A program made the position numbers and the translations under genes. The notes under the pieces are model-generated. The model had not been told where the DNA came from. It searched no databases and saw only the letters and a list, made by a program, of their open reading frames with translations. Of a stretch of DNA of 64,000 nt, positions 12,361 to 49,697 are shown piece by piece. The stretch's first letter is position 1; each line of letters opens with the position of its first letter. The stretch comes from an uncultured Dehalococcoidia bacterium (GTDB lineage Bacteria; Chloroflexota; Dehalococcoidia; Lucifugimonadales; UBA3495): positions 35,001-99,000 of the forward strand of contig CATOSK010000003.1 of assembly GCA_951812535.1 (NCBI GenBank), given 5' to 3'.

Positions 12361-12757
12361 TGTGCCAGTGGAGAACGCACTTTGCTGACGCTTCGCCCAT
12401 TCCCAAGTCCCGCGCCCAGCCCGTACTATGGAGGCATGGTGGAAACAACCCTCATCCCACCCGCCTTGGAATCTTCCTCTCCGGGCGCCAACGGTACAAT
12501 GCGACAGAATGGCACATTATTGACACAAAATGGCACATTGTTGGCACATACCTGGCACAGGTCAGCCCCGAAAATGGTCCGAAATTCGCGTGTTGGCGCC
12601 TTCCCCAAGCCTGAATGGCACGAATGGCACCAAAAAAGAAATTCCGGCATTTCCCGAGTCTGACCCCACCTCTCCCACGGTGGACAAACCCCATGGCCGA
12701 TACTAGACTACTGGCACCTTCCCCCAATCCTTGAAGCCATTCCCAGGAGGTCCATCC
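12361..12757. other. Intergenic region with phased TGNNNCA heptamers
   Basis: 397 bp between the lipoprotein gene and the Ldh2-family gene. It contains a 26-bp block at 12384-12409 that reappears at 48433-48457, six phased heptamers at 12500-12559, and further TGGCAC copies at 12616 and 12625. Reading frames across it are short, Cys/Pro-rich products of the repeats and look non-coding. AGGAGG at 12745-12750 is the ribosome binding site of the next gene. Confidence 0.6.
12500..12559 (+). repeat. Six helically phased TGNNNCA heptamers
   Basis: TGCGACA at 12500, TGGCACA at 12510, TGACACA at 12521, and TGGCACA at 12531, 12542 and 12553. The steps are 10, 11, 10, 11 and 11 bp, an average of 10.6, so every copy faces the same side of the helix. 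The copies at 12510 and 12531 extend to an identical 11-mer (AATGGCACATT). Confidence 0.7.
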
Positions 12758-13813
12758 ATGCCCGTATTCACTCCCGAATATCTCGAAAAAGTCGCCTACC
12801 ACATCTACTGCGCCAAGGGCACCCCGGCTGACGAGTCGGAAATTGTCGCCCGCCACCAGGTCAAGGCCAACCTCGTCGGCCACGACTCCCACGGGGTCAT
12901 CCATATCCCCGAGTACTGCGAGCGCATCGACCGGGGACACATCGTCCCCGGCGCTCCCTTTGTCGTAGAAAGCGACACCCCCACCACCGCCGTCATCAAC
13001 GGCAACTGGGGCTTCGGATTCGTAGTCACCGAGAAGGCCACCCGCATGGTCATCGAGAAGGCCAGGACCCAGGGCGTCGCCGCCATCACCGTCCACCTTC
13101 AGAGCCACATCGGACGCCTCGGCGACTACCCCACCATGATCCTCAACGAAGGCATGATCGGCATGATCACCGCCGACTCCGGCGCCGGCCCCAAGGCTGT
13201 CGCCCCCTTTGGCGGACGCGCCCGGAGGCTGGGAACCAATCCCATCTGCATGGGCATCCCCAGCGACCTGGAAGGCCCCGTCCTGCTGGACATGGCCACC
13301 AGCGCCGTCGCCGCCGGAAAGATCGGCCTGGCCCGCAACCGGAATGAGGCCGTCCCCGTGGGCTGGATCATCGACAAGGACGGCAACCCCACCACCGATC
13401 CCAACGACTACCCCGCCGGCGGGGCCATACTGCCCGTCGGCGCCGACCAGGGGCACAAGGGCTACGGCCTGTCCTTCATGGTAGAGATCTTTTCCGGCCT
13501 GCTCACCGGCTTGGGATTTGGCATAGACCCACAGGCCCGCCACAATGACGGCGTCTTCGTCGTCGCCTTCGACGTCGAGAAGTTCCGCCCGTTAGCCGAC
13601 TTCAAGACAGAGGTCAAGGAGTTTGCCGAGTTCGTCAAGACCTCCCCGCCCGCCGCCGGCTTCAGCGAGGTCCTTTATCCCGGAGAAATCGAGCACCTCA
13701 CCGAGAAGCGTCGCCGCGCCGAGGGCATCTTTGTAGAGGACGAGACCTGGCGCCAGATTACCGAGCTCATGCACGAACTCGGTGTCGCGGAGACCGTCGG
13801 ACAACCCGGCTAG
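12758..13813 (+). CDS. Ldh2 family (malate/L-lactate/ureidoglycolate-type) dehydrogenase
   Basis: NAD(P)-dependent 2-hydroxyacid dehydrogenase of the Ldh2 superfamily, distinct from classical lactate dehydrogenases. The N-terminal HDSHGVIHIPEYCERI motif carries the catalytic His. IGRLGDYPTM, the LGTNPICMGIP loop and DQGHKGYGLSFMVEI are all family marks. It has 351 residues, the usual length. ATG 12758 follows AGGAGG with 7-bp spacing. The substrate cannot be told from sequence. It is a single gene ended by a strong stem-loop shared with the convergent neighbour. Confidence 0.88.
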   Translation: MPVFTPEYLEKVAYHIYCAKGTPADESEIVARHQVKANLVGHDSHGVIHIPEYCERIDRGHIVPGAPFVVESDTPTTAVINGNWGFGFVVTEKATRMVIEKARTQGVAAITVHLQSHIGRLGDYPTMILNEGMIGMITADSGAGPKAVAPFGGRARRLGTNPICMGIPSDLEGPVLLDMATSAVAAGKIGLARNRNEAVPVGWIIDKDGNPTTDPNDYPAGGAILPVGADQGHKGYGLSFMVEIFSGLLTGLGFGIDPQARHNDGVFVVAFDVEKFRPLADFKTEVKEFAEFVKTSPPAAGFSEVLYPGEIEHLTEKRRRAEGIFVEDETWRQITELMHELGVAETVGQPG

Positions 13814-48108: not shown

Positions 48109-48215
48109 CCGGCGTCACGCTGGAAAAATCTGTCAAAACCTATATAAACCTGAGAAAATGGGGCCGTTTTTCAGGCCCACAAGAGATTAGCACACGGTGA
48201 TTCCACCGTCAATTC

Positions 48216-48256
48216 ACCCGGGCTTCGTGAACCGTTAACCCGGGCTTCGTGAACCG
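48216..48256. repeat. Two 19-bp direct repeats 22 bp apart
   Basis: ACCCGGGCTTCGTGAACCG at 48216-48234 and again at 48238-48256. The 22-bp period is two helical turns. They lie about 110-150 bp upstream of the leftward MerR-like gene, a possible autoregulatory site. Confidence 0.75.
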
Positions 48257-48539
48257 AAGTTCTCCGCCCTTCGTTGTTCTCACTCGCACGGCAGCGTTGC
48301 AATTCAGGTGGTTTCCTTCCCGGCCCGCCTCCGGCTCTCCCGTCTTTCCCGTCTTTCCCGTCTTTCCCGCGCAGGCCGGAATCCATACCCCTGCAGATGT
48401 TAAGCTGAACCGCCTAAAACGGAACCATGCCCGCTGACACTTGCCCCTTCCCAAGTCGGGCATCCCCCCGCTACCATAATAAGGTGTCAAATCCCGGCGA
48501 GGTGTCAGGTCCCCTTGGTCCGGGTCCATCCAGCGTAAA

Positions 48540-48566
48540 TGTTACGGAATGCGGCAAAATGTGGCA
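48540..48566 (+). repeat. Three phased TGNNNCA-like heptamers
   Basis: TGTTACG at 48540, TGCGGCA at 48550 and TGTGGCA at 48560, exactly 10 bp apart. TTTCGCA at 48713 and TGTCGCA at 48723 are a further pair 10 bp apart. Same kind of array as at 12500-12559. Confidence 0.55.
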
Positions 48567-48755
48567 GGAGATTTTCCTCCCCGAGCCGCATCCGTTCCAG
48601 CCCCACCGTGACGAACCGCGACAAAACCAGGACATTCCGGCGGCAAGACCGGACTTTTGGGTGAAAGTTCACGGCCAACCCTTGGGCGTCCCCACCCACG
48701 AATGTCCCAAAATTTCGCACCTTGTCGCACATCTCCAGCCCGCAGGAGGCCCCCG

Positions 48756-49697
48756 ATGTCCGTGATGGTAACCGGCGGCACCGGATTCATCGGCAACCGC
48801 ATCATCCGCAAGCTCGTCGAGCGTGGCGAAGAAGTCGTGTGCTTCGATCTCGCTCCGCCCCGGCCCAACCTTGAACCCTACCTCGACCGCATCAGCATCT
48901 ACCGGGGCGACGTGACCCAGGTCCCCCAGCTCCTGGAAGCCTGCCACACCCACGGCGTCCACAAGATCATCCACATGGCGGCCCTCCTCCCACCCGACAC
49001 CGAAGACCGGCCCCACCTGGGAATGCTGGTCAACATCCAGGGCACCAACAACGTGTTCGAGGTTGCCCGCTGGACCGGCATCCAACGGGTGGTGTACGCC
49101 AGTTCCATCGCCGTCTACGGCGTCCAGGACACCTTCGGCAACCGCCCTCTGAACGAAGACGACCTGGCGGCCCCTATCAATATGTACGGCATGACCAAGG
49201 CCGCCAACGACTTCGCCGCCGGCAAGTACCGGGACAACTATGGGCTGGACATCCGGGGCATCCGCATCTGCACCGTCTTCGGCCACGGGCGCGTCACCGG
49301 CATGACCGGAATGATCGGAGGACTCATGGTTTCCCTCCCCGCCATCGGCCAGCCCGTGTCCATGGCCTTCGACCCAATGGAAGCCTCCCCCATGATCCAT
49401 GCCGAAGACGCCGCCGAGCTCTTCGTTGAGGCCGCGCTGAAGGAGGACCTCCGGCACAACGTCTACATCAGCGGCGGCCACCTCGCCACCATCCAGGACA
49501 TGGCCGACACCGTCCGTGAGTTCATCCCCGACGCCCAGATCACCACCGGCGACCGCCCCGTCCCGCACGTATACCTGGTGGACAACAGCCGGATGCTGGC
49601 CGACATCGGCTACGAAATGCCGCCCCTGCGGGTCCGCGTCCTCGAACACATCAACGACGCCCGCCGGGAAGCGGGGATGGACCCGCTTCAGGGGTGA
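48756..49697 (+). CDS. NAD-dependent epimerase/dehydratase (extended SDR)
   Basis: A 313-residue extended short-chain dehydrogenase: M-V-T-G-G-T-G-F-I-G-N nucleotide site, catalytic S-S-I-A-V-Y-G and Y-G-M-T-K (the Y-x-x-x-K pair), then R-I-C-T-V-F-G-H-G-R. The substrate is probably a nucleotide sugar or lactone-type compound, but it cannot be fixed. ATG 48756 follows GCAGGAGG. A long repeat-rich region lies upstream, similar to that of the Ldh2-family gene. Confidence 0.88.
   Translation: MSVMVTGGTGFIGNRIIRKLVERGEEVVCFDLAPPRPNLEPYLDRISIYRGDVTQVPQLLEACHTHGVHKIIHMAALLPPDTEDRPHLGMLVNIQGTNNVFEVARWTGIQRVVYASSIAVYGVQDTFGNRPLNEDDLAAPINMYGMTKAANDFAAGKYRDNYGLDIRGIRICTVFGHGRVTGMTGMIGGLMVSLPAIGQPVSMAFDPMEASPMIHAEDAAELFVEAALKEDLRHNVYISGGHLATIQDMADTVREFIPDAQITTGDRPVPHVYLVDNSRMLADIGYEMPPLRVRVLEHINDARREAGMDPLQG

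Follow-up and report, generated by a model that had tools for sequence, protein, structure and literature searches.

In RAYT/REPIN systems, a few protein genes are accompanied by many short dispersed copies that come from the flanks of the gene, and promoter-carrying MITEs are short dispersed elements with promoters of their own. Among phage proteins, SF6 TerS is thought to rely on weak, cooperative contacts of its HTH when it recognizes bent pac DNA (PMC4737164), and Apl of phage 186 represses from direct repeats lying one turn apart (PMC7498355). In the 64,000-nucleotide stretch of DNA analyzed here (the window), two blocks that match each other are members of a family of about 30–40 short cassettes, each consisting of a promoter and then helically phased repeats, located upstream of many genes of a SAR202-type bacterium. 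We consider it probable that this module is a solo copy of the promoter, leader, and operator of an orphan TerS-like HTH autoregulator, which places many unrelated genes behind that promoter and operator. Binding and repression are inferred, and no binding, transcript, expression, or protein data stand behind the regulator model.

The initial annotation had reported that positions 48433–48457 match 12384–12409 in 23 of 25 bases and with a single gap. The match was confirmed, and its local score (22) exceeds the maximum of 40 Markov-shuffled 64-kb windows (19; mean, 15.6) as well as the best score elsewhere in the real window (16). The first block (48433–48479, plus strand) has the promoter-like layout TGACA-N8-TTCCCA-N18-TACCAT, with TGACA at 48435–48439, a -35-like TTCCCA at 48448–48453, an 18-bp spacer, and a -10-like TACCAT at 48472–48477 (PWM score, 47.9; E = 3.2e-9 with model R1). 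The second (12384–12431, plus strand) is a divergent family member (PWM score, 27.0; E = 0.014) composed of TGACG (12386–12390), TTCCCA (12400–12405), an 18-bp spacer, and TACTAT (12424–12429). A position-weight scan of the window detected only these two blocks. Directly after the 48433 block, a 14-bp direct repeat (AGGTGTCAAATCCC/AGGTGTCAGGTCCC) with 18-bp spacing occupies 48482–48513, and two further repeats, TTCACCCGGGCTTCGTGAACCG (22 bp, direct) and CCGTCTTTC (9 bp, tandem), lie upstream of the block, at 48213–48256 and 48331–48366.

An array was seen about 100 bp behind each block, as had been claimed. The operator-like array at 48537–48569 (plus strand), which holds the same position relative to its block as in other copies, was described as phased TGNNNCA repeats; the spacing of its units at 48540, 48550, and 48560 is indeed exactly 10 bp, but the units are TGTTACG, TGCGGCA, and TGTGGCA, the first of which is not a strict TGNNNCA. 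The array at 12500–12559 (plus strand) contains six strict units, at 12500, 12510, 12521, 12531, 12542, and 12553 (spacings of 10, 11, 10, 11, and 11 bp). One chain of three or more strict TGNNNCA units was found in the window versus none in 30 Markov controls. The two genes said to have strong ribosome sites both start about 190–200 bp past the array, and AGGAGG is present at each. One is an NAD-dependent epimerase/dehydratase-like gene (48756–49697, plus strand; AGGAGG at 48744–48749), named from the initial annotation and the appearance of its sequence, and the other is an Ldh2/malate-dehydrogenase-like gene (12758–13813, plus strand), for which the family name comes from the initial annotation only. 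A second array, absent from that annotation, lies inverted at 48703–48729 (minus strand), 26 bp before the start codon of the 48756 gene, with TGTCCCA, TTTCGCA, and TGTCGCA in 10-bp steps at 48703, 48713, and 48723; inverted arrays with a matching site are also present in cassettes of another genome, G068.

A DNA search with the 48433 region found a third copy on the same contig. In the whole genome of the window (G000; estimated contamination, 6.3%), a pattern search gave 15 blocks and 24 arrays versus none in reversed-pattern controls, and a profile search gave 30 block copies at E < 0.001. The position-weight scan of fetched G000 loci catalogued 34 blocks with the consensus CTGACANTTGCCCCTTGCCAACCCCG...CTACCATGG. 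In most copies the array begins at +95 to +114 behind the block, its distance and orientation being fixed, and behind the 34 blocks, 55 of 71 spacings from one TGNNNCA unit to the next are exactly 10 bp. Between most copies, the similarity is confined to block and array, and the intervening leaders are unlike. Copy number, layout, and phasing are matters of observation, and the genome-wide profile search that the initial annotation had proposed bore out its suggestion of a dispersed element family, with dozens of copies of fixed layout. The same model detected no block copies in G003, G025, G044, and G068. Expanded cassette copies occur in six genomes, all among the 16 of 79 relatives that carry the HTH gene described below. 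All genomes studied are assemblies, and the cassette counts, drawn from searches and selected stretches, are lower bounds. A dispersed palindrome (CTGGGGGATGCATCCCCCAG), separate from the cassette, was noticed near several cassettes, upstream of the block (L009, L012, and L024).

The cassettes are oriented toward genes. The next gene was observed to be co-directional for 34 of 34 cassettes in G000, 41 of 42 in G068, 26 of 27 in G012, and 31 of 40 in G015, compared with a random expectation of about 0.6 estimated in the window; the excess is weak in G015 (P = 0.016) and strong in the other three genomes. Gene calls are our own, made with a home-made coding-potential gene finder, and the orientation and association tests take no account of relatedness among genomes and copies. 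The targets in G000, named by reading the sequences, look unrelated (among them dnaN, ffh, rplU, gatB, proC, a cysteine desulfurase, and selA), and targets barely overlap between genomes, as is expected for copies spread by turnover but not for a stable regulon. The alternative raised by the initial annotation, a regulon of related catabolic genes, did not hold up, and a regulon of any single function was rejected because the targets are diverse and few of them recur in more than one genome. Many of the genes have an apparent second, ordinary promoter after the array (read from the sequence and not counted), and the cassette may matter little for those genes. Separately, the proteins downstream of L008 (G000) and L243 (G015) are 91% identical over 347 residues across two genera, far above other shared targets, and transfer is possible. 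At L155 in G068, a gene 125 bp after the array start begins with MTTEDGRKYRLGLDLGTNSVGWAAVLLNED, which by appearance resembles the start of Cas9.

At L011, L067, L075, L076, L093, and L096, the block is followed by a gene that encodes an HTH protein of about 130–200 residues. A full locus in the genome of the window (contig C5, 33542–34355) has the order block, array, HTH gene, and a gene for a small protein, Q. The phage TerS profile PHROG 2538 matches the HTH family (E = 1.9e-9; five of six members), and PF13022 matches it weakly. The AlphaFold (AF2) model consists of an HTH followed by two long helices (pLDDT, 86.5), and the nearest PDB fold in a Foldseek search was that of phBC6A51 (2AO9), with a probability of 1.0 and otherwise modest scores (E = 0.011; TM-score, approximately 0.4). 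The named relatives of the protein come from SAR202/Dehalococcoidia MAGs, and a search of viral contigs with the HTH alignment gave no match. A third intact HTH paralog of G000 (C6, 121065–121430; L131) has no evident block or array. In leaders of HTH genes, for example L106–L125, a motif near CCAAATCCAACCCGCCACTGAGGC recurs between the -10 element and the start codon.

A block with identical spacing precedes 35 of the 52 distinct HTH genes compared (none in 1040 shuffles), and a phased array lies near the gene start in 37 of the 52, compared with 23 of 312 shuffles (7%). An evident array is missing at the other 15, and some of the three-unit arrays counted are of low complexity and may be due to chance. 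This promoter layout on HTH genes spans several SAR202-type genera in two families. In one genus (g54, family f19), up to eight paralogs per genome have the same promoter and differing array sequences. In G000, TGCGACA units precede the HTH gene on C5 and TGTCCCA/TGTCTCA units that on C4, and both array classes recur as solo arrays; G068, of another family, shows a parallel pairing of HTH genes and solos with TGTYCCA and TGTCGCA. The latter and TGCGACA are reverse complements, and the HTH proteins of both share a RAT-x-x-RWM recognition helix; the site TGCGACA accompanies [HN]RATxxRWM helices in two different families. Judged by eye and without a formal covariation test, the array sequence tends to follow the recognition helix, although G012 and G015 contain several array core sequences that are not all matched one-to-one with an HTH gene. 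The constancy of the block while the arrays vary with the HTH protein argues that different factors read the two.

The gene for Q follows the HTH gene at a short distance, on the same strand, in 11 or more of the relatives and at the majority of the named loci. The linkage was also observed across genomes: Q is present in 15 of 79, of which 14 are HTH-positive (hypergeometric, 1e-12, relatedness ignored). It reaches 31 copies per genome, often directly after a cassette without an HTH gene. In G015, block-leader-array-Q repeat units are about 90% identical and have a common right end (GAAGCTTAG); inspection by eye revealed neither a clear left end nor a target duplication. We flag Q, a protein family present in multiple copies, for which Pfam, PHROGs, and the fold searches made gave no convincing match.

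The homology of solo cassettes to the 5' region of HTH genes was observed directly. Over an interval of about -14 to +152, which opens shortly ahead of the block and closes shortly after the array, the solos L006 and L007 share 84–94% identity with one another as well as with the HTH gene L011; past the end of this interval they diverge. A G068 solo extends as far as the opening codons of the HTH gene, the start-codon region being common to both. These findings indicate that the solos are 5' fragments of the HTH gene. The best reading is that copying placed the promoter-operator in front of many unrelated genes and did so separately in several lineages; the mechanism of copying is inferred, not demonstrated. 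In G068, the MITE-like elements at L151, L155, and L043 have GTAACTGTTCAGA as inverted ends. Their target duplications are 8 bp long, reading GCCCAACA in L151 and GTCAGGCT in L043 and being shifted by one base in L155, and some of the elements carry the cassette. Their GTAA ends recall, as we presume, IS66. The young G000 group has neither inverted ends nor target duplications, and these features were rejected as a general mode of spread because they are confined to some of the G068 copies.

We propose the following mechanism, in which DNA binding, cooperativity, repression, the effect on downstream genes, and any host benefit are all inferred. The general transcription machinery would use the block as a promoter, and the array would consist of half-sites along one face of the helix that several subunits of the HTH protein may bind cooperatively. 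At HTH genes the array overlaps the gene start, and binding there should block the gene's own transcription. Through solo cassettes, this promoter and operator would come to precede dozens of unrelated genes, and the HTH protein should set or damp transcription into them. Where paralogs have different operator sequences, each probably acts mainly on its own cassettes. In short, the HTH protein probably binds the repeats, and many unrelated genes may be under its control.

The alternative that deserves most attention is that the cassettes are non-autonomous mobile elements and HTH and Q form a selfish two-gene element, the array serving movement or copy control and effects on neighboring genes being incidental. 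We regard this as quite possible without favoring it. Lineage-specific expansions with different targets, the high copy number of Q and the highly similar Q units of G015, the decayed HTH copies that we encountered, and the few G068 copies inside elements with inverted ends and target duplications are all in keeping with mobility. However, the young G000 group lacks such ends and duplications, and near-complete co-directionality in three genomes is unexpected for free insertion. Moreover, no transposase catalytic domain was recognized in HTH or Q; searches for a Y1 tyrosine transposase domain (Pfam and PHROGs for both proteins, NCBIfam for HTH only) were negative.

The kinship with TerS also raises the possibility that the cassettes are dispersed pac-like signals that let a phage or gene-transfer agent package host DNA. 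In SPP1, too, pac extends over promoters, direct repeats, and the beginning of the TerS gene (PMC4737164), and a TerS-like homolog is present in streptococcal satellite phages. We nevertheless rejected this as very unlikely: no large terminase (PF03237) was found in G000, G012, G015, G038, or G049, none was recognized among the ORFs flanking HTH genes, the HTH genes sit amid ordinary chromosomal genes, and the cassettes are oriented toward genes. It is just as improbable that the array acts as RNA, either a leader element or a small RNA. Its location downstream of a promoter-like block implies that it is probably transcribed, but exact 10-bp phasing fits duplex DNA, the same site is inverted in one cassette, and the array falls within codons in several genera. 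A chance C-rich match, conceivable for a C-rich block in a GC-rich genome, is scarcely credible in view of the shuffle scores and the dozens of copies at fixed spacing with no control matches, and was discarded.

Going beyond the autoregulator model, we suggest only tentatively, and with more doubt than conviction, that TerS-like HTH and Q constitute a new class of two-gene element in SAR202-type Chloroflexota, each lineage of the element having an operator code of its own and the element spreading truncated promoter-operator copies of itself that rewire host genes, so that several parallel regulator-operator networks derived from a phage packaging protein would coexist in a genome. No published description of the cassette or the HTH system was found in the papers searched, including the phBC6A51 literature, although such absence is weak evidence. 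If the proposal is true, a phage packaging protein has turned into a family of regulators on the chromosome, with self-operators that have been copied in front of essential and metabolic genes, and there would be a chance to watch a network form by the copying of one autoregulated promoter. The host lineage is abundant, uncultured, marine, and sponge-associated; a conserved promoter module is gained for a group without genetics. Across many paralogs, operators appear to change in step with recognition helices, and they therefore offer a natural data set for the DNA-recognition code of TerS.

Compared with known systems, the HTH protein resembles phage TerS (phBC6A51-like; PHROG 2538, PDB 2AO9) and that of the SPP1 pac system in combining, according to a model with only weak fold matches, an HTH with a helical region. 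As in SPP1, direct repeats span the promoter and the start of the protein's own gene; a phased array near the gene start is present at 37 of 52 HTH genes. Unlike phage TerS, it occurs with no large terminase in the genomes checked, with dozens of chromosomal sites upstream of genes, with paralog-specific operators, and with the partner Q; the repeat-sequence specificity proposed here would also differ from the recognition by SF6 TerS (PMC4737164). Phage 186 Apl and recombination directionality factors share HTH-type sites arranged as direct repeats one helix turn apart and repression of promoters (PMC7498355), but Apl belongs to another protein family, as far as the profile searches made can tell, no integrase was noticed here, and the present sites are dispersed genome-wide. 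The pattern of few protein genes and many short dispersed copies derived from gene flanks is that of RAYT/REPIN, whereas here there is no transposase and the copies are gene-oriented and carry a promoter and phased direct repeats. Promoter-carrying MITEs are similar as short dispersed promoter elements, and the G068 subset has inverted ends and 8-bp duplications, whereas the young G000 copies have neither.
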